Shown here: positions 4,892 through 36,063 of the stretch, in pieces
Numbering within the stretch: the stretch's first letter is position 1
Layout: each line of letters begins with the position of its first letter
NCBI GenBank assembly: GCA_023264635.1
Contig: JAHFLT010000014.1
Span: forward strand, 1 to 36,063
Direction: 5' to 3'
Source of the DNA: Candidatus Woesearchaeota archaeon
GTDB taxonomy: Archaea; Nanobdellota; Nanobdellia; Woesearchaeales; JAGVYF01
DNA: 36,063 nucleotides
The notes under the pieces: model-generated
What the model saw: the letters and a program-made list of their open reading frames with translations, nothing else
Databases searched by the model: none
Told to the model about the DNA's origin: nothing
Program-made: the position numbers and the translations under genes

Positions 4892-5842
4892 TTACGAGAC
4901 ACCGCTTTCTTTTATGATAAGTCGACCTGTCGTAGCATCCAATGCAGCCATGACACCTATCGGAAGGGTCGCTCTGTTGTTTCCGTGACCTATGGGAAGG
5001 TTATAGATTGTCGGAAGCTGTAATGGCTGTAGCAGCTCAAGGAGAACATCTTCTACGCTCAAAGAGGAGTAATAGCCAGGTCTGAATTCATTTGGAGTGC
5101 ATTTGATACATTCACCAATCACAATACCCGCAGCATCTTTGAGTTTTCCGGCGTGTAATAGCTGAGTGAGCATCATATCAAAATGATAAGGCTCCACTTC
5201 TACTTCCTCTAAGAAGAGGATTTTCCCTTTGGTATCAATTTCATATGGTGTTCCTAAAGAAGCAGTAACCAGTGAAAGGTTGCCTCCTATGAGCTGCCCA
5301 TCAGCTCTTCCTGGTGTTATCGTCCATATCCATGGATTCTGTGGAGAGGGTTCGATGTCTCCGATAGGAGTTTTCTTTGTCAACGCTTTTAGTAAATATC
5401 TCGTTGTGTAATCAGATAAGATTTCCTCTGTCGCAAGTCCGGCTACAGAAGGCCCATGGAATGTCACAAGTCCGGTTTTCTGAAGAATTGCGAGATGCAA
5501 CGCAGTGATATCAGAGTATCCCAGAAAGATTTTCGGGTTTTTTTTTATGGCATCATAATCCAATTGTGGTAACAAACGCATTGATCCATAGCCACCCTGC
5601 AAACAGAAGATAGCTTTAACTTCTCTGTCTCGGAACATTGCATTGAAATCTTCAACTCTTTCCCGATCTGATCCGGCAAAATAACCATGAACTCTGGTCA
5701 CATACTTGCCAAGCTTTACTTTGTATCCCCACTTCTCCAAAAGCTTTACCGAACGGATAAGCGTCGTACGCTCAAAACTAGGTGAAGCAGGCGCAACAAT
5801 GCCTATCGTGTCTCCCCGTTTCAATGCTTCTGGCTTAATCAT
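4892..5842 (-). CDS. L,D-carboxypeptidase/MccF-like serine peptidase, family S66
   Basis: A 316-residue S66 peptidase of normal family length. The nucleophile Ser110 lies in GYSD, a Glu is in FLEEVEVEP (residues 210-218) and His286 in PIGHGNN completes the Ser-Glu-His triad. The N-terminal GDTIGIVAPAS and the CLQGGYGSMRLL segments are also typical. In bacteria these enzymes trim the terminal D-Ala from murein tetrapeptides during recycling, or inactivate microcin C (MccF). An archaeon should have no murein, so the natural substrate may be host or environmental peptides, or a microcin-like compound. There is no signal peptide, so it acts in the cytoplasm. It could be a horizontal acquisition from bacteria. 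Confidence 0.88.
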   Translation of the reverse strand: MIKPEALKRGDTIGIVAPASPSFERTTLIRSVKLLEKWGYKVKLGKYVTRVHGYFAGSDRERVEDFNAMFRDREVKAIFCLQGGYGSMRLLPQLDYDAIKKNPKIFLGYSDITALHLAILQKTGLVTFHGPSVAGLATEEILSDYTTRYLLKALTKKTPIGDIEPSPQNPWIWTITPGRADGQLIGGNLSLVTASLGTPYEIDTKGKILFLEEVEVEPYHFDMMLTQLLHAGKLKDAAGIVIGECIKCTPNEFRPGYYSSLSVEDVLLELLQPLQLPTIYNLPIGHGNNRATLPIGVMAALDATTGRLIIKESGVS

Positions 5843-5906: not shown

Positions 5907-8447
5907 TTACTTCATCTCTCTTATCTTTTTCTTACTCTCGTCCCATTCCTGCAGAAACCGTTTCACTGTCTTCGCCACGTGCTCTGGCTGGGTTTTGAGA
6001 ATATCTGCAGCTTGTTGCAGGAGATCGCCTGTTGACTCTTTAGTGCTTGTCAATTCCAATTCCTTAGCAGCTATTTTTTGGTTTTTTTGGACAGCTTTTT
6101 GTGTACTTTTCCATTTTCCAAAAAGTTCCTGCACGCGTCCAGGCACACATTCTTCAGCAATACCTAATAGTAAAGCCACTTCTCGCAGCGCAAAAATTGT
6201 GTCTTCTTTCACTTTTTCAGCTGCACTACCAGCCACAAAAGTAAGTCGTACTATTCCATCTGAGATTTTATTGCTTTTGATGATCCGTATCTTACCAGCT
6301 TCTTTTGTATTGTGTAAGTGCGTTCCCCCACAGCATTCCACATCAACTTCCGGAATTTCTACAATGCGCAGTTCCTTCCCCGGCACGACACCACCCTGAT
6401 ATATTCTCATCCCAAACTTCTGCTCAGCAGCTGTACGCGAATAGAATGATAACTTTGTCTGTATTGCTTCGCGCACCAGCTTGTTCGCTTCTTCCTCAAT
6501 CTTCTTTAATTCCTCTTCGCTTAGGCTTTGGTAATGCGTTATGTCTATGTGTGCCTTTTCCTCTTGTTTCTTTGCGCCAGCCTGGTTAACATGATTTCCC
6601 AGCACACGGCGTGCAGCAGCATTAATGATATGCGTAGCTGTATGATGCTGCGCAAGCTGGAAACGCCGTTTCTTGTCTATTTCTCCGGCAATGGTGTCAC
6701 CTTCTTTGAATCGTGGATGCTCAGCCAGCTTATGCACAATGATATTACTTTGCTTAAACACATCAACCACCCTATGAGAACCTAATACCCCTGTATCATA
6801 TTCCTGCCCACCTGATGTTGGATAAAAATAAGTCTTGTCTAGTATAACATATTGCCCAATAACCTTTAGCACTTTTGCAGAGAAATCTGTCTTTCTGTAA
6901 TCTTCATAATACATAGTTTTTGTCTCAGGTACATCTTCCAGAGACAGCTGTTCTTTCTCTTCGGCTTCTTTCCCTTCCTGTTGTTCGTGTAGTTCTGCAA
7001 CACGTGCATAAAAGTTATCCGGTACTTTGACATTGACACAAATTTTCTTTGCCTCTTCCTCAATGAGTTCAGGAGAAATACCTTGGTTATCATAAAGCGT
7101 CAGCAGTTTTTCATCAGTAATTTTTTCCTTGGCTGCCAGCAGGCGCTGTATTACTTGTCGTGATTTCTGCCGTGTACTTTCATATTTGTTTTTTTCGACA
7201 TCAAGTATCTCATGGACATCTTCCAGATTTTCCATGAGCTCAGGGAAAAGGGGTTTTATGTATTCAGCATGAGTTTGGGCAACATCCGCTAAATGGATGT
7301 TCCAGCCGTAATGGTCTATGAATGAGAGCGCTCTACGTAAGATGACCCTTAGATTATAACCACCACGCACATTACTTGGCAGTGCACCATCATTCAATGC
7401 AAAAAGCAGGCTTCGTGTATGCTCAGCTACAGAATATATTGCTGCAAGCGGCTGGACAGCATCGCGTAAATCCTTTGTGTCCATATTCATCTTCTTTGCT
7501 ACAGAATTCCATGCTTTATCGATGTTCTCGACCTCATCTACATTTAAATAGGAGGCATATGGCAGGAATCGTCTTATAACATCCTTTTCACCTGTAACAC
7601 CTGTTGCGTGTAATAGTTTTTTACAGACTGTGGGAAATGTTGTCTCATAGCTTGTGCTCGTGCCTTGCGTGAACCATGCATTTCTCTCATGTCCCATGCC
7701 CATATCGAGCACTTTCAAATTCAGCTCTCGTGGGCCATGGGGAGTTGTTTCGTAGAGCATATACACCTGATTTCCCAGTTCAAGTCCTCGGGAATAGTAT
7801 TCCATCGACGGCCCAAAATTCCCGCCACCTGCCCAGGCATCTTCATGGAATGTTATTTCTTTATCTGACAGGCCTAGCCCTTTGTTAAGCCACGTTTTTA
7901 TGTCTGAGAAGTATTTTGCCTGATCAAACTTGTCTTTTGGCATGAATGCATGTTGCCCAATCATAACAAAGCCGGTGTAATGCGCCCCCGTTATACCAAC
8001 ATTATCTATATCATTAAAGCGGAGACAGAATTGCGGCACTACCAATGGATTCGCAGGTGGAGTGACTTCTCCTGATACAACATATGGCTGGAAATCATAA
8101 ATAGATGCCTGCACAAAATCAGTATCTGTTCTCCATCTGGCTGTCACAGGATAACGTTTTATCGGCGTGTAGCCTAATTTGCTGAACAGCTTTGAGAAAT
8201 TCTGCCATGTCTCAATGTAGTCCATCTTATTTTTTGCAGGAGGCTTATCAAAGAATTTGAAGCCACCAGAACATGCAGGATCACCACACGTTTTCCTGTC
8301 AGCATGCACTGTCCAGTAGAATGTGCCGCACGTGCATTGTTTGCGCATGAAACCATTATTCTTCAGTACATCAACAGCATAATACTTCTCAGGACTTTTT
8401 GATGCCTTCAGCTTGAACTCTTTCTTTACTTCTTTGTCACTCATCAT
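5907..8447 (-). CDS. alaS: Alanyl-tRNA synthetase, archaeal type
   Basis: An 846-residue class II synthetase that charges tRNA-Ala. The archaeal N-terminal zinc-binding segment (CTCGTFYWT, then CGDPAC) is at about residues 38-60, before the catalytic core with RFNDIDNVGITGAHYTGF. The editing domain has the HHTATH motif near residue 600 and CCGGTH near 705, which form the metal site that clears Ser- and Gly-tRNA-Ala. The C-terminal helical dimerisation part follows. It is slightly shorter than many archaeal AlaRS (about 900), mainly at the C-terminus. Start choice is ATG 8447 or the adjacent ATG 8444; a TATA-like box fits either as leaderless. Confidence 0.97.
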   Translation of the reverse strand: MMSDKEVKKEFKLKASKSPEKYYAVDVLKNNGFMRKQCTCGTFYWTVHADRKTCGDPACSGGFKFFDKPPAKNKMDYIETWQNFSKLFSKLGYTPIKRYPVTARWRTDTDFVQASIYDFQPYVVSGEVTPPANPLVVPQFCLRFNDIDNVGITGAHYTGFVMIGQHAFMPKDKFDQAKYFSDIKTWLNKGLGLSDKEITFHEDAWAGGGNFGPSMEYYSRGLELGNQVYMLYETTPHGPRELNLKVLDMGMGHERNAWFTQGTSTSYETTFPTVCKKLLHATGVTGEKDVIRRFLPYASYLNVDEVENIDKAWNSVAKKMNMDTKDLRDAVQPLAAIYSVAEHTRSLLFALNDGALPSNVRGGYNLRVILRRALSFIDHYGWNIHLADVAQTHAEYIKPLFPELMENLEDVHEILDVEKNKYESTRQKSRQVIQRLLAAKEKITDEKLLTLYDNQGISPELIEEEAKKICVNVKVPDNFYARVAELHEQQEGKEAEEKEQLSLEDVPETKTMYYEDYRKTDFSAKVLKVIGQYVILDKTYFYPTSGGQEYDTGVLGSHRVVDVFKQSNIIVHKLAEHPRFKEGDTIAGEIDKKRRFQLAQHHTATHIINAAARRVLGNHVNQAGAKKQEEKAHIDITHYQSLSEEELKKIEEEANKLVREAIQTKLSFYSRTAAEQKFGMRIYQGGVVPGKELRIVEIPEVDVECCGGTHLHNTKEAGKIRIIKSNKISDGIVRLTFVAGSAAEKVKEDTIFALREVALLLGIAEECVPGRVQELFGKWKSTQKAVQKNQKIAAKELELTSTKESTGDLLQQAADILKTQPEHVAKTVKRFLQEWDESKKKIREMK

Positions 8448-18271: not shown

Positions 18272-19321
18272 CTAAACAAGTGGTCCGTACCCTTCATAAA
18301 ATAATGGTAGAATCATGCCAGCTGCTGCATGATGTACGTGGTGGCAGTGAAATAACCAAACTCCTGGATTATCAGCAACGAGTTCTATATCATAACGCTC
18401 TCCAGGATGAACTGGAAGATTATCACGAATTTGTTGTGCTGATTCAGGAACAGGATAACCATCAATGGCTACAACCTTAAATGCATGACCGTGTGTATGC
18501 ATCGGGTGAATTTCTTGTGTGCCTGCATTTATGAGACGAATAAGGATGTGCTCATTCTCTTTAACCATTAAAGGATCAATGTCCGGAAATATCCTGCCAT
18601 TTATTGTGAAAACATTATAATCGTGTTTGTGGATGTGTTCTCCATCCTGACCAATCATTTCCAATGCCTTGTTAAACCCGCCTGAAGTTATTTCCCATTC
18701 GTCTAAAATATAAACATATTCCCTATCATATTTTTTCACATCTATTTTTGGTTCGATTATAAATGCTCCAGATAAACCCATGTCCATTTGTAAGGCGACA
18801 TCTTCATGTGAAGAACCATGGGTGTGATAGAAATGTGTTCCTGCATTTTTTGCAGTGAATTCATAAACAAATGTTTCCCCTGGCTTAATGGGATGTTGCG
18901 TTAATCCGGGAATACCATCGGCTTTGTTTTCTACATGTACGCCGTGCCAATGAATACTAGTTGGAACACGAAGATTATTTTTAACAATCACACGAACTTT
19001 ATCTCCTTCTGTTACTCTAATTTCTGGTCCTGGGATTTGATCGTTATAGGTCCAAGCATAAACCAATTTTCCTTTGGCATATTCCCAGCGAATCTCATCA
19101 ACGGAGAGCTGGAATTCTTTAACTCCTTCTTTTTCAAGATAATTTAATCGCGCTATTCTATCTGTCGGAGTTTTCAGAGGAAGTTTCATTAAATTTTCCA
19201 TGCTGATGGTTGTCTCTGAGTGACCATTGTGTACTTCTCTGGGAGTCAGAAAATAAGCACCTGCTAAAAACAAGCTAGTAATGAGTGTGATGATAATAAA
19301 CGTTTTAACATGATTTTGCAT
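18272..19321 (-). CDS. Two-domain multicopper oxidase, exported
   Basis: A 349-residue protein with an N-terminal signal/anchor (residues 7-25). It has two cupredoxin domains and all four copper motifs: H124-W-H126-G, H166-T-H168, H272-P-M-H275-T-H277, and H325-C326-H327-x3-H331-x4-M336. The set is complete for the type 1 site and the trinuclear centre, as in small laccase-type two-domain oxidases, which work as trimers with the trinuclear site between subunits. It would oxidise a phenol, metal ion or similar outside the membrane and reduce oxygen to water. It is 23 bp downstream of an 84-aa His-rich membrane protein, likely one operon. Possible roles are copper tolerance or oxygen removal. 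Oxygen use suggests a habitat with at least some oxygen. Confidence 0.92.
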   Translation of the reverse strand: MQNHVKTFIIITLITSLFLAGAYFLTPREVHNGHSETTISMENLMKLPLKTPTDRIARLNYLEKEGVKEFQLSVDEIRWEYAKGKLVYAWTYNDQIPGPEIRVTEGDKVRVIVKNNLRVPTSIHWHGVHVENKADGIPGLTQHPIKPGETFVYEFTAKNAGTHFYHTHGSSHEDVALQMDMGLSGAFIIEPKIDVKKYDREYVYILDEWEITSGGFNKALEMIGQDGEHIHKHDYNVFTINGRIFPDIDPLMVKENEHILIRLINAGTQEIHPMHTHGHAFKVVAIDGYPVPESAQQIRDNLPVHPGERYDIELVADNPGVWLFHCHHVHHAAAGMILPLFYEGYGPLV

Positions 19322-19822: not shown

Positions 19823-19854
19823 CCCAAGGTGGGACGTTGAAGCCCCGTATCAAC

Positions 19855-19946
19855 GCCTCGGCCGGGATTTGAATTCCCGCAGCATTTGCTGTCCCGGGTC
19901 GCAGGCTCCGGAGGCCCGCATTCTGTCCAAACTATACTACCGAGGC
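19855..19946 (-). tRNA. tRNA-Arg (anticodon CCG) with a 19-nt insertion in the T-arm
   Basis: On the minus strand the acceptor arms GCCTCGG and CCGAGGC pair perfectly. The anticodon loop is CTCCGGA on a five-pair stem (one G-U). After removing 19 nt (starting ACAGCAAATG, about 19874-19892) the T-arm becomes CCGGG, TTCAAAT, CCCGG, fully canonical, so the insertion lies between positions 53 and 54. The insert folds as CAGC, AAAT, GCTG. It could be a non-canonical intron, as known from crenarchaeal tRNAs, although a clean bulge-helix-bulge is not obvious, or the gene may be non-functional. The D-stem is weak. No CCA is encoded. The spliced length would be 73 nt. Confidence 0.8.
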
Positions 19947-20722: not shown

Positions 20723-21925
20723 TCACTCAAGCCAATTCTTCTTCAGTTGCGCAAACTGTCCATCAATAATACTCTGCCTGATGCGTTTCACAATGGTTAG
20801 TATGAAGTGTACATTATGATATGATGCAAGCCTGTATGCAAGTAATTCCTTTGCGACGAAGAGATGCCGTAGATACGCACGTGAGAAGTGTGTACATGTA
20901 TAACACATACAGAATGGATCTATTGGCAATGTATCCTCACGAAATTGCGCATTGGTAATTCTTATCCTGAATTTGTTTACAGGAGAGCCACCAGCTGCTG
21001 GTGAGATAAGCAGCATGGCAGAACGTGCCATTCTTGTGGGTCCTGCACAGTCAAACAGGTCTATGCCGCGTTCAATGCATTCAAATAAGTCATCTATCCC
21101 CCCAATTCCCAACAGATGTCGCGGCTTTTCCTCAGAAAGCAGGGGTATTGTCCACTCAAGCACTTGATGCATTTCCTTTTTTGATTTACCGAGAGAACCG
21201 CCAATGGCATAACCTTCACATGGCAGATTGACAATAAATCGTGCACTTTCTTCGCGCAAATTCTTATACGCACCTCCCTGTACAATACCAAAGAAGGCTT
21301 GTTCTGTTTTCTTTGCGTTGATGCAGCGAACTGCCCATCTGTGTGTACGGGCTAATGCTTCTTTTGTGTACTCATATGAAGACAGCGGGGATGTGCATTC
21401 ATCGAATGCCAAAATGATATCTGCTCCCAATTTCTCTTGAATGGTAATCGATTTCTCCGGTGTCAGCTTGTGTCGTGATGCATCAATATGAGAGACAAAT
21501 GAAACACCTTCCTCATCAACCACTGCAAGCTTACTCTTTGGTGGCCGCTGTTCCTTTGTTTGCTCATCCTCTCCGGGGAAGATGTTTGCTATCTTGCCAA
21601 CTCCATGCTCCAAGGCGAATCCTAAGGAGAATGCCTGGAAACCACCGCTGTCTGTGATAATTGGTCCTTTCCATTGCATAAATCCATGCAAGCCGCCGAG
21701 CCTCGCTATAGATTCTTCTCCCGGACGCAGATAGAGATGATAGGTATTTGACAGAATGATTTCAGCACCCATTGCCAGTAAATCATGCGGCGTTAATGTT
21801 TTGACAGTTGCCTGTGTCCCAACAGGGATGAACATGGGAGTCTCTATAAATCCGTGCGGCACGCTGATGACACCTGCCCGAGCTCTGCCTTCTTTCGCAA
21901 CGATGGTGAATGAAAGATTGCCCAT
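20723..21925 (-). CDS. tgt: Bacterial-type tRNA-guanine transglycosylase, likely using queuine
   Basis: A 400-residue transglycosylase, bacterial in length and sequence, without the PUA domain of archaeal TGT. General base Asp92 is in DSGGFQ, Asp175 in FDEC, Gln216 in VQGG, the nucleophile Asp292 in FDCAGPTR, and the zinc ligands are C339, C341, C344 and H370 with the usual spacing. After IGG the pocket reads SLGKSK: by eye the position equal to Val233 of the Zymomonas enzyme is Gly246, as in queuine-using TGTs, while Cys177 is kept as in preQ1 enzymes. About 20 extra residues (113-133) are inserted. The ATG at 21925 overlaps the stop of the upstream gene (TAATG), so the enzyme is translationally coupled to Qng1; the upstream open reading to 21997 is not needed. 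Confidence 0.93.
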   Translation of the reverse strand: MGNLSFTIVAKEGRARAGVISVPHGFIETPMFIPVGTQATVKTLTPHDLLAMGAEIILSNTYHLYLRPGEESIARLGGLHGFMQWKGPIITDSGGFQAFSLGFALEHGVGKIANIFPGEDEQTKEQRPPKSKLAVVDEEGVSFVSHIDASRHKLTPEKSITIQEKLGADIILAFDECTSPLSSYEYTKEALARTHRWAVRCINAKKTEQAFFGIVQGGAYKNLREESARFIVNLPCEGYAIGGSLGKSKKEMHQVLEWTIPLLSEEKPRHLLGIGGIDDLFECIERGIDLFDCAGPTRMARSAMLLISPAAGGSPVNKFRIRITNAQFREDTLPIDPFCMCYTCTHFSRAYLRHLFVAKELLAYRLASYHNVHFILTIVKRIRQSIIDGQFAQLKKNWLE

Positions 21926-22842
21926 TAGTAGAAGATTGTACGCGTCTGGTGATGTGTCTGGAGAGAAAGTTCCTTTGCAGTTGTCCAGAGGATCCAATCT
22001 ATCTGATATGATGCAAGAGGTGTTAATGCTTTTATCATTTCTACAGCTTGGATCGTCGCTGCTCTGATCTCTATCTCTTCTTCTGACCCTGAAGCGAGTT
22101 CAACGCCATTGCGGATATTCTCATCAAGCGATTGCTCGTACTTCAACACACCATATGCATGCAACAGCTGTGGCAGTTTGTAATCTGCAAATGCAGTTAT
22201 CTTATCCATGCCTCGTAAGGGGTATGATTTTGCGCCATGTATATCTGCAGCGAGTATTTGTGCACGTTTCAGCAAAGGGATACTTCTTCCTTTGTATTGA
22301 GCCACATCACGAAAAGAAGAAAACTCTTTTGTCATGACAAAAGCCAAAGATAATGCATCAAATCCAGCTTCCTCTAATAAATGGAGCGGGTCTCCGTTAT
22401 ACTTCTCAAGAAGGACAGAACCAAGCTCATTCAGTGCCTTCACTCTTTCGTCCATCAACAAAAGCTCCCCTTGTCCACGGAGAATATGTTCCAAATCTTG
22501 CTTAGGCATTGCTCTGAGATAGTATGCATTGGTTATGGGAATCTCCTCATCCATGGCTCTCCTTAAACTTGCTGCAAGCGCTCTGTATCCACTGTTTTTT
22601 TTTCCATTGTACTCCATGCTCCATTTTTTCTCAGGTGTATTCCAGAAACAGAAATTGAGTGTATCGAGAACCAGCACGTACCATAAAGCCTCTAAAGAAT
22701 CTGTGCCATTGTAATGCACATCGCATTCCCAGGCAGGCACATTTTTACCGTAGATAGGCAATATCAGGAGTAGCTCTTTGTCTATCATGACGTGCTGCGC
22801 ATTTTCTACCACGTACTGTGTTCCCTCTAAAATCGGATTCAT
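21925..22842 (-). CDS. qng1: Queuosine salvage N-glycosylase, Qng1/DUF2419 family
   Basis: A 305-residue protein of the Qng1 family (human C9orf64 homologue). Landmarks in order are FCFWNTPEKKWSMEY (about residues 84-98), SGYRALAASLRRA, RGQGELLLMDERVKAL, SSFRDVAQYKG, LLKRAQILAADI (about 199-210) and KITAFADYKLPQLL, all conserved in the family. It hydrolyses queuosine 5'-monophosphate to queuine, which TGT then uses. It is the first gene of the pair, with TAATG coupling to tgt. ATG 22842 has a TATA-like box 26 nt upstream (22864-22872), so the operon is probably leaderless. Function of the family is established in eukaryotes and some bacteria; in archaea this is an inference. Confidence 0.9.
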   Translation of the reverse strand: MNPILEGTQYVVENAQHVMIDKELLLILPIYGKNVPAWECDVHYNGTDSLEALWYVLVLDTLNFCFWNTPEKKWSMEYNGKKNSGYRALAASLRRAMDEEIPITNAYYLRAMPKQDLEHILRGQGELLLMDERVKALNELGSVLLEKYNGDPLHLLEEAGFDALSLAFVMTKEFSSFRDVAQYKGRSIPLLKRAQILAADIHGAKSYPLRGMDKITAFADYKLPQLLHAYGVLKYEQSLDENIRNGVELASGSEEEIEIRAATIQAVEMIKALTPLASYQIDWILWTTAKELSLQTHHQTRTIFY

Positions 22843-22863: not shown

Positions 22864-22872
22864 CTTTTTAAG
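22864..22872 (-). promoter_or_regulatory. TATA-like box of the queuosine-salvage operon
   Basis: CTTAAAAAG on the minus strand, centred 26 nt before the Qng1 ATG. Confidence 0.5.
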
Positions 22873-22939: not shown

Positions 22940-23983
22940 ATGAAATACAATGACGTTGTTGATCTTTCTGTTCTCGAGCCAGTGAAAAGGGATATTCTTG
23001 AGAAGCTCAAGGCAACGTTTACTCATTGCGAGACAGCTGGTGTGCAGCTGCATCAAGGCAGTGTGGGAGAACCTGCTGTATTGTTTGATTTGCCGGATGG
23101 AGATTACTACCTCGCATTCAAGATGGACGGTGTGGGGACAAAGTCAGCAATAGCAGACAAAATGGCAATTGCAGAGAAGCAAGGACAAAAGCTATACTCG
23201 GGATTAGGGCAGGATCTTGTAGCCATGAATGTCAATGATCTGGTTTGCGTAGGTGCAATCCCTTTTGCACTGGCAAATGAGATTGCGATGGGAGATGCAT
23301 CTTATCTCACTACGCAAAGGAGAGAAGAACTGCTTGAGGGATTAGTTACTGCTGCACAAAAGGGGATGGTCACCATCGCGTGTGGGGAGACTGCTGTCTT
23401 GCCGGATATCATTGCAGCAGGCCATGCGAACATCACTGGCGCTGCACTTGGGTTGGTGCCAAGAGGATGGTTGCGGCTTGGAGAGCATATCCAAGAAGGT
23501 GATTGTATTTATGGATTATCTAGCTCAGGCATTCATTCCAATGGTTTGTCACTTGCACGTAGAATAGCGGAAAATTTGCCTGTTGCATATGCTACTCCTT
23601 TTGCCGGAAAAACCCTTGGAGAGGAACTACTCATTCCAACGCACATCTACTGCCATGAAGTATTGGGCCTCTTTGAGCATGGAATTGATGTGCACTACAT
23701 CAGTAATATCACTGGTTCTGGTTGGAGAAAGGTGATGCGCTCACGATATGAGTGGACGTATGTCATTGATACAGTACCACCGATGCAGCCTATTTTCTCT
23801 TTCTTGCAGGAAAAAGGAAACGTTACTGATGAAGAAGCGTACCAGACATGGAACATGGGTGTTGGAATGATCATTATAGCTTCGGAGAGTGAACAAAGAA
23901 AGATAGCAGGGATTGCACAAGTAATTGGTCACGTTGAGAAAGGACCAAAGAGAGTGATATTACCATTTACAGAATATCGCTAA
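22940..23983 (+). CDS. purM: Phosphoribosylformylglycinamidine cyclo-ligase (AIR synthase)
   Basis: A 347-residue enzyme of purine synthesis that closes FGAM to AIR using ATP. It has the PurM N-terminal domain with MDGVGTKSAIA (the ATP-site DGVGTK signature), then NDLVCVGAIP and CGETAVLPD, and in the second half GLSSSGIHSNGLSLAR and NITGSGW. An in-frame ATG at 22907 gives 11 more residues but lies in the TATA-like box; ATG 22940 starts MKYNDVVDLS, the normal family start. It converges on truD with a 4-bp overlap. No other purine gene is beside it; purB is 5 kb away. Confidence 0.95.
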   Translation: MKYNDVVDLSVLEPVKRDILEKLKATFTHCETAGVQLHQGSVGEPAVLFDLPDGDYYLAFKMDGVGTKSAIADKMAIAEKQGQKLYSGLGQDLVAMNVNDLVCVGAIPFALANEIAMGDASYLTTQRREELLEGLVTAAQKGMVTIACGETAVLPDIIAAGHANITGAALGLVPRGWLRLGEHIQEGDCIYGLSSSGIHSNGLSLARRIAENLPVAYATPFAGKTLGEELLIPTHIYCHEVLGLFEHGIDVHYISNITGSGWRKVMRSRYEWTYVIDTVPPMQPIFSFLQEKGNVTDEEAYQTWNMGVGMIIIASESEQRKIAGIAQVIGHVEKGPKRVILPFTEYR

Positions 23984-25161
23984 AGCTGACATATTCTTTT
24001 TATTATAATGGTCGCATATGCCCCCTTTTCCAATGCAAAAGAGAGAGTAATTTTGTATAATCCATTGTTTAGCTCGTCTTTTTCTGGCTCAGTTGCAGCA
24101 AGATTCTGCGGAAAAAGAAGCATTGAACGAGGTCTTTCCTTGAAAAAGAGAGACGTCATTTTTTTAACTACCAGATCATCCAGTGTAAGCCCTTCCTTAC
24201 GTAGAACTCTGTCCACAATTCTCTGTAATTCATAAGAGACTCTGGTTTTCTTGCTGAGCATGGGAAGAGCATATGTGCGCCATTGTTCAAGCAACTCAGG
24301 TGACAATTCTTTGTAGAACAACAATTTTCCTGCACCGTATGGGAATTCTACAAGTTTCTGTATTTTTTGCCGTAATAGTAATTTAACACACTCATTCCAA
24401 AGAAAACTTTGATATGCAGAGACGAATAATTCTTTTATGGTCCTATCAAGGAGCTTGAATGCACCAACAAAGTCATTTTGATTCTTTACAAGATATTCGA
24501 GCACACGATATTCCTCCCGTAGATGCTTTGCAACTGGTGCACATTGTTCTACAAGAGTCTCCCATTGCCCCCAGTGCATGTCAAGGGATTTTCTGCAATT
24601 TCTGACAGATGCACGTTCAAAGCCCCGTTTTCGTGTGAGAAATAATTTTAATCCTGTTTCGAAATCATCAAAAATAAGATGCTTTGCAATGAAGTCAGAG
24701 GTTCCTTGCAATGACCCGAAGCGTTGCGTGTCAAAGTAATTAGGAACACCAAACTGTTTTGTTTGTTCTGTGGCTTTCTTTATCTTATCTAATTCATCTT
24801 TTCGTAATGCTCTTACGGTTATCGTGAACTTGTTCTTTTCAAGGTCACCTGTCTTTAGTGGTTGTTCAACAAAGCCAATAAATTGCAGCGAGATGTTTTT
24901 CTCCATGAACGTATATCTCTGGCCATCTCTGCCTTTAATGGACAGATACTGCGTTGTTTTTGCATGCTTGTCCTTTAGCCCAGCAATGCCTATTTCTGGG
25001 TAAGCAATACGGAACTTTCGCATTATAATCTTTTTGGCTTCAAGTGTATCCAGACTTGTTTTTTCCAGAAGGTAAAGCGAATATTTTCCCTCTTTGGAGA
25101 AGGTAGGATGATACATCTCTTCCACAATAAAATCTTCTGGCGTCTGCTTAAGTTTCATCAT
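23980..25161 (-). CDS. truD: tRNA pseudouridine(13) synthase TruD
   Basis: A 393-residue pseudouridine synthase that acts on U13 of tRNA (and in some archaea U35 of tRNA-Tyr, as Pus7-like). The catalytic Asp is in GLKDKHA (about residues 61-67), and NYFDTQRFGS, the C-terminal end of the active site and the TRUD insertion domain follow. The length is normal for archaeal TruD. Starts are ATG 25161 or the adjacent 25158. A TATA-like box (25179-25188) fits a leaderless start. It is divergent from tRNA-Lys, whose TATA box is just beside it. Confidence 0.95.
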   Translation of the reverse strand: MMKLKQTPEDFIVEEMYHPTFSKEGKYSLYLLEKTSLDTLEAKKIIMRKFRIAYPEIGIAGLKDKHAKTTQYLSIKGRDGQRYTFMEKNISLQFIGFVEQPLKTGDLEKNKFTITVRALRKDELDKIKKATEQTKQFGVPNYFDTQRFGSLQGTSDFIAKHLIFDDFETGLKLFLTRKRGFERASVRNCRKSLDMHWGQWETLVEQCAPVAKHLREEYRVLEYLVKNQNDFVGAFKLLDRTIKELFVSAYQSFLWNECVKLLLRQKIQKLVEFPYGAGKLLFYKELSPELLEQWRTYALPMLSKKTRVSYELQRIVDRVLRKEGLTLDDLVVKKMTSLFFKERPRSMLLFPQNLAATEPEKDELNNGLYKITLSFALEKGAYATIIIKRICQL

Positions 25162-30617: not shown

Positions 30618-30999
30618 CCCTAAATCGTGCCATATCCTCGTTCGTCAATCCCATGTAACACACCCTGCAGAGGAAGACATTACTCTCCCATAAAATACCA
30701 GCTTCACGTTTTGCATACCGTTTGCAACGCGCACATGTGAAACCTTCTTTTAATGAGCTGGCAAAGAGCGTGTCAAGTGTTGTTGTTTTTGATGCAAATC
30801 CTGTAAGCAGCGGTTCTTTGTTTTTTTTACTCTCTTTGTGTTGCGCTTCTTCGAGATATCTTTTGACAGTCTCCTCAGCTATTCCCAGAAGTATAGCTGT
30901 CTCATGCAATGTCTTGCCATTTTTCAGGAGAGTGCATGCGTGCTCTGCCCTTTTCAGTTTCTCCCGATGCCCGAAATTATCTTTCATATTCTTTTCCAT
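30610..30999 (-). CDS. Helix-turn-helix plus zinc-ribbon protein, 129 aa
   Basis: Residues about 30-52 (TLHETAILLGIAEETVKRYLEE) are a helix-turn-helix with the length of sigma/Xre-type DNA-binding motifs. C90 and C93 (CARC) and C112 and C115 (CRVC), numbered from the TTG at 31002, form a zinc ribbon. A DNA-binding regulator or RNA-polymerase-associated factor is likely. ATG 30999 is preferred to the TTG at 31002. The 3' end overlaps purB by 8 bp and the 5' end overlaps the preceding gene by about 23 bp, so all three are translationally coupled. Confidence 0.7.
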   Translation of the reverse strand: MEKNMKDNFGHREKLKRAEHACTLLKNGKTLHETAILLGIAEETVKRYLEEAQHKESKKNKEPLLTGFASKTTTLDTLFASSLKEGFTCARCKRYAKREAGILWESNVFLCRVCYMGLTNEDMARFRGA

Positions 31000-31891
31000 C
31001 AAGGTATATTACTGGCTTTGCGCAAAGTATGGGTAACCTGATAGATTCACGCCAGGGAATGGCGCAGCTGTACCATCCACAATCAAAGAGAATCTCTTTT
31101 GCTTGCGGCAGATTGACTGGCTCAGCCATTATTTCGCATCCACTAAGGATGTCCTTTGCGGTCAATGTAAAAGGGTAATAAAACTGAAATTCAGCATCGT
31201 TCTTCATGGTCTCATTCTTCATGGTGACAGTAAGCGGAATGGATATCTCTCTTTTAATGCTATCTGCCTTAATCTGTTCAGGGGAGACAGACAGCGATAT
31301 TGTATCCCCTTCACGCTCGAGATGCTGGCTCTGCAGCTTCTTGCTTATTGCCTGTCTCACATCCCTTTTGCTAAGAGTTGAGAGAATAAGATTTCTGAGG
31401 AATCCTGTTTCTTCCCATGTCTTGACAAGATACTTCGCACGTTGTGCATATTGACCCAATGGGAGCTTTATCCTAATAACAAATCCAGGTATGCTTTTGC
31501 CGCTTCTGCTTGTCCATCTGCCGTCAAGGAGTACTCTTATATCCGTAGGCTCCACAATGGCACGAATACCTTTTATTTCCCGCGTGAATTGTTCTTCCTG
31601 ATGCAGCAATTCTTCACAACCAGCAAGGACATTACTCATACCGGTTTCCAATTCGTGCTCTATAGTAAGTTCATTGGCAATACCTGCCTGCCAGAAGGTA
31701 AAGCCGCCATGTTTTGCAAGATTTTTCGCTAATGATTCTGTCTTCTGCTCGACACATTGGGAAAATGCAGTAGCGAGATACGGGAAGAGTATTGATTTTT
31801 CTTTTCCGTTCTCATAAAGCGGGGCAATCCAGATACTTAGAAGCAAGGTGCATATGAACACTATGCCCATAAATAAGATTGCTGTTCTCAT
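30977..31891 (-). CDS. Single-pass membrane protein with external beta domain
   Basis: A 304-residue protein. The ATG at 31891 overlaps the TGA of the preceding gene (ATGA). The frame is open further upstream, but that part would overlap the 222-aa gene over a longer distance, so the shorter form is chosen. Residues about 4-22 form one membrane anchor (FMGIVFICTLLLSIWIAPL). The exterior part contains CVEQ near residue 45, GCEELLHQEEQF, and several beta strands, with CEIMAEP and LFDCGWYSC near the end. No named family. Probably a component of the same cell-surface apparatus as its neighbours. Confidence 0.6.
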   Translation of the reverse strand: MRTAILFMGIVFICTLLLSIWIAPLYENGKEKSILFPYLATAFSQCVEQKTESLAKNLAKHGGFTFWQAGIANELTIEHELETGMSNVLAGCEELLHQEEQFTREIKGIRAIVEPTDIRVLLDGRWTSRSGKSIPGFVIRIKLPLGQYAQRAKYLVKTWEETGFLRNLILSTLSKRDVRQAISKKLQSQHLEREGDTISLSVSPEQIKADSIKREISIPLTVTMKNETMKNDAEFQFYYPFTLTAKDILSGCEIMAEPVNLPQAKEILFDCGWYSCAIPWRESIRLPILCAKPVIYLDGKEYER

Positions 31892-32556
31892 TTTGACAGG
31901 TATGCTTTTTGCCATGCAAAATACATGATAAGCAGCACACCCGAGAGGATAAGTTCTATGTCCTCTGAAAAGAATTTGAGAGCAAGCGCAATGATGGTTA
32001 TGCAGCTGAAGACAATGATGCATGCCCTTATCTTATGCCTGATGATTTTTTTTTCATTGAAGAACCAGCTCATTGTCTTTGTGTGAAGGACTGCGGTGCT
32101 TATGACAAATAATGGAATAACTCCTCCGAGAAGGATGACCGATACAGCAAGAGAACTAACCATAAGTGGTACATGGTTCTCTACTAATCCAGTAAGCATC
32201 CAGTTCATTGTGCCATTAGCAACCACTATAAGCAGAACAACAGAACTTCCCATGCCAAGAAAAAGTGGGATTGTGCGTTTTGCCCAGACACCGATCTTGC
32301 ATTTTCTTTTGCCAAATGTGCGAAGCAATAAAGCTGTATTCCATAGCCAAAGCATGATGAGAGCTACAATAAGCAGCACGGAAATGGTAATGCCCAGCGC
32401 CCTACTCGTAAGAGCCTCAATGACAAACTGATATGCCAGCAACAAAAGCGCAGCGCCTGTGTAAAAGACTGCATCATACCACAATGTGTGAAAAAATAGT
32501 TTATAATCTACTGTTGTTCTATAATCCCCTATTCTTTCCTTTAGTCTATATTCCAC
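31888..32556 (-). CDS. Six-TM membrane protein
   Basis: A 222-residue protein with six hydrophobic segments at about 29-48, 53-73, 93-111, 127-150, 178-195 and 199-215, joined by short charged loops. There is no visible channel, transporter or enzyme motif. Its position between two exported proteins suggests it anchors or exports part of the system. It overlaps the upstream gene by 11 bp and the downstream gene by 4 bp. Confidence 0.6.
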   Translation of the reverse strand: MEYRLKERIGDYRTTVDYKLFFHTLWYDAVFYTGAALLLLAYQFVIEALTSRALGITISVLLIVALIMLWLWNTALLLRTFGKRKCKIGVWAKRTIPLFLGMGSSVVLLIVVANGTMNWMLTGLVENHVPLMVSSLAVSVILLGGVIPLFVISTAVLHTKTMSWFFNEKKIIRHKIRACIIVFSCITIIALALKFFSEDIELILSGVLLIMYFAWQKAYLSK

Positions 32557-34633
32557 GTATGCTACCTTTCCTCCCCGTGCTTGGTCCTTGTGGCGTCACT
32601 TCTTGCAATGGTGTCAGTTCTGTCACATCACTCATTCTGTTGCATGTCATCCCCTTGCTGCTCCGCAGACATAGTTTATCATAGAAATTCCTGCTATACT
32701 GGACAATGCTGCTTTTTGCTCTGGCGCTTGCTGTCTGGCCTTTTGGAACTGTAGCATCTTGTGTCAGCAGACTTATGACGTTGGTCTCCCCTCTGTAGAG
32801 ATCAACATTGAACGTGATGTCTTCTTGTTGTGCATCAACGAAGTAATTGAGCTTGTACAGATACTCTTTTGTCCTGTTAGGATACACTACTGTAGACCGA
32901 GTGCCTGCAACATAAGCAAGAAGAGTCTTTAATGGAGTATCTGCAATAAGCACACCCTCCTGACTCGCTTTCTTTTTTGAGAACGTGCCGCAATAGCCAA
33001 AGCTTGGTTCTCCCTGAATCAGCTGCCCAAACTCAGAAGAGAAAAACTTGTCGATAAATTCAAAATTCTTCACATTGAATATTTCAGCTGCACGTGCTGC
33101 AATATATGCATTATTCAGTGCAACTCCAAGGTTTGCGCGCTGGAATGAGCGTAACGTTTCTTCATAAATCTGCTTGCAGCTCAGGTCGTTGATGCATTCC
33201 TTAGTGGTCTTGCACTTTTGATCTCCTCCTTTGCAGGAGTCAGTTATTATTGTGTTGCCCACCCTGATGCGCATATTCACTTGTTGATATGGGCAGGTGT
33301 AATCACGAGTAGGGTCACAAACACGCCCTAGCTTATTGACATATTCTATCCTGCTGGATTGTTCAGGGATAGGCTTGCCATTTTCATCATAATGCGTTCT
33401 GCCAATGGGGTAACCTGTTACATCATAGATAGTTGAAACCGATGGTTTTCCCTGTGCAAAATCAGTCCTTACAAATATCTTGTTTCCCTTTGCATCAGTA
33501 ATAATCTCGTCTGCCATTGTTGGAACTCCATGTTCATTCTTCTCTGTTCGTGTATGGACACCTTTATCATCCTTCCATCGCACCTCACGCTGTGCATAGC
33601 CATCCGCAGTAGGATTACGTGCAAGAGCGACTTTCTTGACACCATCTTCTGTCATCCCACTTACTTGCTCGAGCTCAGTATTGTCTCTAAAGACACGTGC
33701 AGTGTTGCCCTCCACAATAATACGTTTGTCACCTGCGATTGCGGTTTTTCCATCAAACTGCGTGATTTCATCACCATACGTCTCTTCCAGCACTTCAGCT
33801 ACTTCTTCATCAACTGCATTACCATTAATGATCTTTTCTATAGTCCCGTCTGGTTTTGTTCTTGTTTCCCACCTAATGCTATTCCGCTGGTGTGAAGCAA
33901 CTGTCGTGTCTCCGGCCAACTCATAGCTTACAGTATCATCTTTTGCATCAATTAAGACCCCTTTCTTTTTCACAGCAGCTAAGAAAGAGGGATTTGTTTT
34001 TTCAAGTCCTTGCATGATGAGTAGTCCTTTCTCAGGATTCTCTGGTTGTTGGGACATGACATACTCTGCTGCATCAGGTGTCACTGGCATTGTTTTCTTT
34101 GTCGCAGGATCATAGAATAAGCTTGTAACAGGGCTGTTTTTCTGATAAAGCATTCGTAATGTTCTCCCCGTATCATCTGCATACAGTTTTTCCACTACTT
34201 CTCCTTTATCATTCTGCGTTTCGATGAGAGTATTCCTCGCCTGCAGCGGTGCAGTCTCTTTGTCAGAGACAGTCTTGATGTCTGGTAAGATAGCATACGT
34301 CGTGCCATCATTATTGTACACATAGAGATCTCCATCGAGATAACGCACCTTATGGGAGATGATGTCTTTTTTTGCGGTAGGAAGCAATGCATAGGTGACT
34401 TGCTTATTATCCTGATCCAATGGTATCTTTGCCAGGAAGTATGCCTGAGTTCCCGCGCTTCCTTGTGCAGCTGCTTGTGTAGCTGGTGTACGCTCGCTGA
34501 AATAGGGTAATGAAACTTCTTTGTAGTTTTGTTCACCTGCGCCAAAGACTACTGGCATGACTACCAGAATGAGCAGCAGCATGAGATGTAAAGAGAACTT
34601 TCTTCCTCCTGCCTTTTCAATGACACCTTTCAT
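32546..34633 (-). CDS. Large secreted protein with YD/RHS-like strand repeats
   Basis: A 695-residue protein with a classical signal peptide (MKGVIEKAGGRKFSLHLMLL, then hydrophobic to VVFGA). The middle (about 90-440) is built of short antiparallel strand repeats of the type KGNKIFVRTDF, STIYDVTGYPIGRTHYDENGKPI, similar to the YD repeats of RHS and other surface-toxin proteins, but without a clear shell. The end has paired cysteines (CDPTRDYTC, CKGGDQKCKTTKECINDLSC, CLRSSKGMTC). The start at 34633 uses the ATGA overlap with the upstream gene. Probably a surface-exposed or secreted structural or adhesive protein. Confidence 0.6.
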   Translation of the reverse strand: MKGVIEKAGGRKFSLHLMLLLILVVMPVVFGAGEQNYKEVSLPYFSERTPATQAAAQGSAGTQAYFLAKIPLDQDNKQVTYALLPTAKKDIISHKVRYLDGDLYVYNNDGTTYAILPDIKTVSDKETAPLQARNTLIETQNDKGEVVEKLYADDTGRTLRMLYQKNSPVTSLFYDPATKKTMPVTPDAAEYVMSQQPENPEKGLLIMQGLEKTNPSFLAAVKKKGVLIDAKDDTVSYELAGDTTVASHQRNSIRWETRTKPDGTIEKIINGNAVDEEVAEVLEETYGDEITQFDGKTAIAGDKRIIVEGNTARVFRDNTELEQVSGMTEDGVKKVALARNPTADGYAQREVRWKDDKGVHTRTEKNEHGVPTMADEIITDAKGNKIFVRTDFAQGKPSVSTIYDVTGYPIGRTHYDENGKPIPEQSSRIEYVNKLGRVCDPTRDYTCPYQQVNMRIRVGNTIITDSCKGGDQKCKTTKECINDLSCKQIYEETLRSFQRANLGVALNNAYIAARAAEIFNVKNFEFIDKFFSSEFGQLIQGEPSFGYCGTFSKKKASQEGVLIADTPLKTLLAYVAGTRSTVVYPNRTKEYLYKLNYFVDAQQEDITFNVDLYRGETNVISLLTQDATVPKGQTASARAKSSIVQYSRNFYDKLCLRSSKGMTCNRMSDVTELTPLQEVTPQGPSTGRKGSIRGI

Positions 34634-36063
34634 TCCATCCCCACCTTCCCGCACACATTCTGTGCTCTTCCCTGACTGAGCAGGTCACTTTGGAGATTAC
34701 CAAATTGTTTGAGTTGCGTGAATGTGCTCAGCGCTTGTGGCAATGTCCGTGCCACGGCGCAGATCATGCCATTTGTGCCTAAGTCAGCATAGCGCTGTTC
34801 ACACGCGAACGTGCCAAGGCCAAAAACCATTGAAAGCGGATTTGCAAATATGGTTTTCATGTACGTTGCCATGCGCTTCACAAAATGGGAAAATGGAATT
34901 AAGTCAAATACCTGACCGTAGAAAAAGCGGCATTTGAGATATTCATGCTGATTCACGCAGTATTGCATGGGAATCCCCTGCTGCACCTGATTCTGTAAGC
35001 AATCAACATAAACACATTGCAGTTGTTTGTATTTATGTAGGTTATACAAGACGCCGGGAATGCATCCGGTAGCCATGCTAAGGAAAAGGTTGTCCTTTGG
35101 GTTTTGCGGCCACGCAGTTGCACTGAGATGCGCCTTCTTGCTCCACTCAGGCTCGTTAATGAATTTGTTATACCAGTTTCCCCAGATAGTTTTGTCGCAT
35201 GATAAGTAAAGGCAATATTTGTAGGCGCTTGCGAACATGGTGTTATCTTGTATCCCATTACTAAAGCCACCTCCACCACCTCCTAATGCGCCAAGCATGC
35301 CTCCTGCTGATGCTGAAGAAAAGAGCGAAAGTCCACTGCATATTTGTTCTGCGATGCGGTAGATTTGTTCAAGCGGCTTGAATATTTTCCGTAGTCCATA
35401 GAGATCCCAGTTTTTCGCATCATCTATTTTCTTCTGTAGTAAGTCGTCCAGTGCTCCGGGTGTTGTACTCACAAGAGGCACTTCCAAATGGAGAGTGAGT
35501 TCCTGCGGCTTTGTGAGGCGTTCATTGTTGATGACAGTCATCACTGAAGCAGTGCATGTGGCTTTGATCTTGGCAAGTGCGGCATCTGACGCCATGGGAC
35601 CAACTGTTGTCTGCAGCAACAAACCGTCCTCTGCAGAAAGAATCCTGACAAGGGAAAATCCATTGTTGTCTGTGCAGTCAAGAATTGCTCCGTCAATAAT
35701 CTTCGCATTCTGAGGACCAATAAGCGGTACTCTGAAGTACACGCGCTGCTCAAAAAACAGGGTGTCTTTGTCCATAACGCGTGGCATTGGCATTGGCTTG
35801 CCGTTTACCTGCCAGTAGTTCTTTTTTTCTTTTTCAGCAGCGAGAACATCAACAGTCAGCGTCTTTTCAGCACGATTGCCTCCCAGGTCAGTAAATATAA
35901 GTTTTATCTGTGCACCCTTTATCGGTCCTGGCAGAAGCTTGCCTATGTTGCTCCATAAGCACCGGTGCATATTCTCCTCTTGAGGCACGCATTCAATGGT
36001 GACTGGTTCTTTTATGCCAATAACCTGCTCAACATATGCTTGTCCTCGGATATTTGTGTCATC
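34630..36063 (-). CDS. Large Cys-rich secreted or membrane protein, 5' end outside the window
   Basis: The frame is open through the right edge of the window: 25 further codons lie before the GTG at 35988, with no stop, so that GTG is not the start. Visible are 477 residues. The first part is beta-rich (KLIFTDLGGNRAEKTLTVDVL), like an immunoglobulin or cadherin-type domain. A Gly-rich loop (MLGALGGGGGGFSNG) follows a hydrophobic stretch, and the C-terminal half has many cysteines (CLYLSC, CIPGVL, CVYVDC, CVNQHEYLKC, FACEQRY). The stop overlaps the next gene start by 4 bp (ATGA). A surface structural protein is likely; family unknown. Confidence 0.6.
   Translation of the reverse strand, partial: DDTNIRGQAYVEQVIGIKEPVTIECVPQEENMHRCLWSNIGKLLPGPIKGAQIKLIFTDLGGNRAEKTLTVDVLAAEKEKKNYWQVNGKPMPMPRVMDKDTLFFEQRVYFRVPLIGPQNAKIIDGAILDCTDNNGFSLVRILSAEDGLLLQTTVGPMASDAALAKIKATCTASVMTVINNERLTKPQELTLHLEVPLVSTTPGALDDLLQKKIDDAKNWDLYGLRKIFKPLEQIYRIAEQICSGLSLFSSASAGGMLGALGGGGGGFSNGIQDNTMFASAYKYCLYLSCDKTIWGNWYNKFINEPEWSKKAHLSATAWPQNPKDNLFLSMATGCIPGVLYNLHKYKQLQCVYVDCLQNQVQQGIPMQYCVNQHEYLKCRFFYGQVFDLIPFSHFVKRMATYMKTIFANPLSMVFGLGTFACEQRYADLGTNGMICAVARTLPQALSTFTQLKQFGNLQSDLLSQGRAQNVCGKVGME

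Follow-up and report, generated by a model that had tools for sequence, protein, structure and literature searches.

As a rule, queuosine is regarded as a modification found in bacteria and eukaryotes, and archaeosine as its counterpart in archaea. The locus described here consists of a Qng1/DUF2419 gene followed by a bacterial-type tRNA-guanine(34) transglycosylase (TGT) gene, as seen in the open reading frames and profile searches, on the minus strand at 20723-22842 of a 36,063-nucleotide stretch of Woesearchaeales DNA, hereafter the window. Bacterial salvage clusters are built from the same two families as signature genes (PMC11130926), and some 30 contigs share the gene order and TGT subtype of the window, whose host, unlike theirs, is an archaeon without a known queuosine-precursor transporter. 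The eukaryotic system of Qng1 and QTRT1/QTRT2 follows the same logic, namely a nucleosidase that frees queuine and a TGT that inserts it directly; the Qng1 active site is intact in the window, but a single bacterial-type TGT gene is present and no gene for a second subunit. Chlamydia trachomatis, which salvages queuine directly through QPTR and a queuine-type TGT, likewise has no QueA, QueG or QueH and an altered TGT pocket, whereas the window genome has Qng1 and no QPTR. Archaeal TgtA has the catalytic TGT fold in common with the window enzyme, but the latter has no PUA match and would be expected to act at another tRNA position. Within the same archaeal group, QueA, QueH and Tgt, as part of queuosine synthesis, were described in 12 DPANN genomes in 2021, and a bacterial-type Tgt in DPANN is therefore not new (PMC8204110); in contrast to those genomes, the window genome is without QueA, QueG and QueH, and finished queuine would be salvaged in the reading proposed here. 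In the limited literature collection searched, which is not proof, no report of Qng1 or of queuine salvage in archaea was found, and we regard the pair as an archaeal addition to the known bacterial and eukaryotic salvage system.

In our view, the pair is likely a queuine-salvage operon of bacterial origin. Qng1 would hydrolyse queuosine-5'-phosphate (or queuosine) to free queuine, and the co-translated queuine-type TGT would exchange G34 of the GUN tRNAs, tRNA-Asp, -Asn, -His and -Tyr, for that base, which would be inserted directly and require no later enzyme step. The 305-residue Qng1 (21925-22842, minus strand), a predicted queuine-releasing queuosine-5'-phosphate nucleosidase, matches Pfam Q_salvage (PF10343) with E=3.7e-78 over residues 43-305 and the solved bacterial Qng1 7uk3/7u07 with E=7e-70 in phmmer, and it is about 38-46% identical to bacterial Qng1s in the alignment. 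Its AlphaFold model (pLDDT 94.3; TMq 0.93 against 7uk3) also matches 7u91, a crystal structure with queuosine-5'-monophosphate bound. Besides this full-length homology the catalytic Lys/Asp pair is present, as Lys192 and Asp220 (22183-22269, minus strand) are equivalent to Lys199 and Asp231 in the numbering of the solved bacterial enzyme, the residues mutated in structures 7u5a (K199C) and 7ulc (D231N).

The coupling of Qng1 to a bacterial-type TGT that the sequence-only reading had described was confirmed by the PF10343 and TIGR00430 matches and by the overlap of the two frames. The Qng1 stop and the TGT start meet in TAATG (21923-21927, minus strand), with one base common to TAA and ATG, and counted from this ATG the TGT frame (20723-21925, minus strand) encodes 400 residues (TTCTACTAATGGGC); the overlap would couple the two genes translationally. 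A TATA-like box, CTTAAAAAG (22864-22872, minus strand), precedes the ATG of Qng1 by about 22-30 bases, and AT-rich boxes resembling it occur at roughly the same distance upstream of the genes for alanyl-tRNA synthetase (AlaRS), Spt5 and a HAD protein, suggesting a putative leaderless archaeal promoter.

That the host is an archaeon, apparent from the sequence, holds at the level of the whole contig, which the window spans and which belongs to a 46-contig Woesearchaeales genome of 1,316,035 bases (96% complete, 0.42% contaminated). The pair is flanked on one side by an archaeal-type AlaRS (5907-8447, minus strand; TIGR03683, 881 bits against a cut-off of 745) and on the other by archaeal Spt5 and ribosomal protein L11 (27703-29013, plus strand; TIGR00405, 149 bits against 70, and NF002232, 210 bits against 162). 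A bacterial pair on a mis-binned contig would account for the close bacterial relatives of both genes, such as a Chloroflexi TGT with 62% identity to that of the window, but is extremely unlikely given these archaeal genes on the same contig, the low contamination, the TATA-like boxes and the occurrence of the pair in a second woesearchaeal genome.

The assignment of the second gene to the bacterial-type, G34-specific enzymes is equally firm. The TGT matches PF01702 with E=4.6e-135 and reaches 490 bits, against a cut-off of 307, on TIGR00430, the model for bacterial-type enzymes specific for G34, compared with just 128 bits on the archaeal TgtA (G15) model TIGR00432, which is below the cut-off of 350; the Pfam search found no PUA domain in the 400 residues, all of which are catalytic domain. 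As the sequence-only reading had held, the catalytic and zinc residues are complete, with Asp92 and Asp292, accompanied by Asp175 and Gln216, and the CxCxxC...H ligands Cys339, Cys341, Cys344 and His370, and the AlphaFold model (pLDDT 90.3) matches the Z. mobilis TGT with a TMq of 0.87. A loop insertion of about 30 residues (about 103-132; 21530-21619, minus strand) follows FQAFSLG in the alignment and is mostly predicted to be disordered. The genome holds exactly one TGT-family gene, since its two search matches are the two halves of this gene split by the insertion, and as this sole gene is of bacterial type there is no archaeosine TgtA. An archaeal host with no other TGT might have re-purposed the enzyme for an archaeosine-like modification of position 15; we give this very little credence, as the enzyme fits the G34 and not the G15 model and has no PUA match, and as QueD is absent and full-length QueC was not found, hence no preQ0 synthesis is expected.

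With regard to the substrate pocket, the sequence-only reading had seen a queuine-type signature in Gly246 replacing Val233 of preQ1-type enzymes, although Cys177 is retained. Alignment to preQ1- and queuine-type enzymes confirmed that Cys177, the equivalent of Cys158, is kept and that the pocket loop is altered, but a clean Val233-to-Gly246 substitution had to be dropped. The loop GGSLGK (residues 242-247; 21185-21202, minus strand) stands where preQ1-type enzymes have GGLAVGE and is one residue shorter (GG-SLG against GGLAVG), so that gap placement decides which residue faces Val233; Gly246 is one of two possible pairings, and MAFFT aligns Leu245. Judging from the alignment, the true signature appears to be this one-residue deletion together with a Pro160-to-Ser exchange, as the pocket motif is DECTS (Asp175-Ser179; 21389-21403, minus strand) instead of the preQ1-type DECTP, with Ser179 replacing Pro160. 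The co-varying DECTS and shortened GGSLG loop would be a stronger substrate signal than Val233-to-Gly246. In human QTRT1, missing side chains at 232-233 give room for the queuine cyclopentene and Ser164 contacts the cyclopentene ring, and with the offset set by human Val161 = Cys158 (PMC6165067), Ser179 might lie at the position of human residue 163, beside that contact. Queuine TGTs typically carry GG[LS][AS]G and preQ1 TGTs GGLAVG (PMC11570991); GGSLGK is free of GGLAVG and near to the former, but it falls outside the exact motif, which, together with a Cys158 that is Val in eukaryotic queuine enzymes, counts against queuine as the substrate. Single residues are no proof of specificity, because Z. 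mobilis TGT carrying the C158V/V233G double exchange still does not insert queuine (PMC3660597).

Gene content, judged by family searches of the window genome, also bears on the substrate. QueA, QueG, QueH, QueD and QueF were not found, and QueC gave no full-length match, only weak and mostly partial ones of about 24-27 bits that we read as probable other PP-loop enzymes; a full preQ0/preQ1 pathway, whether for de novo synthesis of queuosine or for preQ1 salvage, was therefore not recovered among QueD, QueC, QueF, QueA and QueG/QueH, the genes searched. About 4% of the genome is possibly missing from the assembly, and it is unlikely that all of the absent genes were lost by chance in that fraction. 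The absence of QueA and of QueG/QueH agrees with what would be expected of a genome with a queuine-type TGT. From gene linkage, gene absences and subtype pattern we infer specificity for queuine and not preQ1; the enzyme is likely queuine-type because the synthesis and tailoring genes are absent and because its subtype is linked to Qng1 in bacteria.

Environmental preQ1 could nevertheless be inserted as the final base, with Qng1 merely degrading or recycling queuosine nucleotides. The retained Cys158 equivalent would allow this, and B. henselae, a TGT-only genome, provides a precedent for preQ1 as the final base (PMC11570991). We consider this improbable, since the product of Qng1 is queuine and not preQ1, the translationally coupled pair is widespread with the same TGT subtype, the preQ1-type GGLAVG loop is replaced, GGSLG TGTs and QueA never occur together in Woesearchaeales, and no known preQ1 transporter family was found in the genome.

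Queuine could reach the TGT from scavenged or from recycled queuosine nucleotide. Of the proposal that the cell takes up queuosine nucleotide, frees queuine and inserts it at position 34, the salvage step is supported by the missing synthesis genes and the Qng1-linked subtype, but nucleotide uptake is no more than possible: neither of the known queuosine-precursor transporters QPTR (PF02592) and QueT (PF06177) was found in family searches of the window genome, and Qng1 may equally recycle queuosine-5'-phosphate from the cell's own tRNA. It is quite possible, though not the version that we favour, that Qng1 recovers queuine solely from turnover of the cell's own queuosine-containing tRNA and that external queuine enters otherwise. 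Queuosine-5'-monophosphate is a product of tRNA hydrolysis (PMC11130926) and is the ligand in 7u91, and the missing transporters fit this arrangement as well; even so, an initial input of queuosine or queuine would still be required, as synthesis genes were not found.

The salvage reading is further supported by the recurrence of the pair. Contigs of GTDB genomes were scanned with the Qng1 alignment and the best 80 loci taken, of which 33 have a TGT frame downstream on the same strand, opening less than 300 bases away in 29. All 29 full-length bacterial TGTs of these 33 loci carry the insertion, DECTS and GG[SAT][LV]G. Among the best 80 loci, about 30 bacterial contigs have the pair in the same order and with the same TGT subtype, in hosts including Desulfobacterota, Chloroflexota and Bipolaricaulota, and these recurrences together with the E-values exclude a chance origin of the pair. 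A search of sister genomes was only partly rewarded: relatives within the genus and the family have neither gene, whereas the more distant Ca. Woesearchaeota CG11 (G016 = L127) has them adjacent.

Among the 23 Woesearchaeales genomes with a TGT of the window-type insertion clade, loop type goes with the presence or absence of QueA. QueA occurs in none of the 17 genomes with GGS[LM]G and DECTS, and in five of the six whose TGT has GGxFG or GSxFG without DECTS (Fisher p=1.8e-4, uncorrected for kinship); the TGTs with the GGxFG switch all belong to one clade, and the link to QueA thus counts as one evolutionary event and not six. QueA was seen in 22 relatives of the window genome. QPTR is present in 12 of the 17 GGS[LM]G genomes and lies no further than about 1.2 kb from the TGT gene in nine; these nine (L058, L059, L061, L062, L063, L065, L068, L069 and L073) have GGSLG and no QueA, and the arrangement looks like a Chlamydia-type direct queuine uptake in archaea. 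Another 45 woesearchaeal TGTs form a second, larger bacterial-type subfamily with LDDxP, GGLxIGE and FDS in place of FDC (for example L020, L018 and L025). QueA is present in the genomes of 15 of these 45 TGTs, and for the 30 whose genomes have none preQ1, queuine and the product of another enzyme are candidates for the final base.

As for the origin of the pair, Qng1 of the window and of CG11 groups with bacterial operon-type Qng1, and eleven other woesearchaeal copies form a separate lineage in which a Pacearchaeota genome is also represented. That Qng1 arose just once in Woesearchaeales was rejected (AU p 6e-5), the TGT-linked and the stand-alone genes being separate lineages. The members of the separate lineage (L002, L003, L005-L012, L015 and L149; Woesearchaeales and Pacearchaeota) are not beside a TGT gene, and some genomes with stand-alone Qng1, such as G037 and G042, show no TGT. 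For the window TGT, FastTree gave a place among Chloroflexi, whereas under a better model it branched off first among the insertion-type TGTs of Woesearchaeales (support 98/92), with AU p values of 0.035 for grouping with Chloroflexi and 0.058 for grouping with all bacteria; depending on the model, the enzyme would be either that earliest branch or close to Chloroflexi. The pair was probably acquired laterally from bacteria. Its GC and GC3 are similar to those of neighbouring genes, which, together with the TATA-like box, suggests an old and domesticated acquisition, and Qng1 had no match in the phage collection searched.

More broadly, archaeosine at tRNA position 15 might have given way in most Woesearchaeales to queuosine-family bases at position 34, supplied within this one order by interchangeable routes, namely QueA/QueH tailoring of salvaged precursors, QPTR uptake of queuine and Qng1 release from queuosine nucleotides. 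The window species would then be an obligate queuosine scavenger in need of a bacterial partner for its translation; we hold the case for this whole scenario to be nearly balanced, leaning slightly against. An archaeon that has the coupled Qng1-TGT pair but neither an archaeosine TGT nor queuosine synthesis would carry dietary-style queuine dependence into all three domains of life, and it would hint that this tiny archaeon is nutritionally tied to bacteria. The data also provide a testable signature of TGT substrate, namely DECTS and GGSLG together with Qng1 or QPTR, as opposed to GGxFG without DECTS together with QueA in the same clade.

The remainder of the window holds several further features. 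Four overlapping minus-strand frames at 30977-35988 encode 348, 222, 702 and 452 residues, none with a Pfam match and the two largest with no NCBIfam match either. An LD-carboxypeptidase of family S66, of the peptidoglycan-processing type, is encoded in this archaeon at 4892-5842 (minus strand), and a two-domain multicopper oxidase of 349 residues (copper-oxidase families) in the same small genome at 18272-19321 (minus strand). TruD-type pseudouridine synthase is present in two copies, one in the window next to tRNA-Lys (23980-25161, minus strand) and one elsewhere in the genome (G000:C12:6512-7219). Finally, a tRNA-like gene missed by ARAGORN lies at 19854-19946 (minus strand; Rfam tRNA, 31.8 bits). 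Its acceptor stem is GCCTCGG/CCGAGGC and its anticodon loop CTCCGGA, with a CCG anticodon that is probably for Arg; about 20 additional bases separating the anticodon arm from the T arm probably represent an intron in a non-canonical position.
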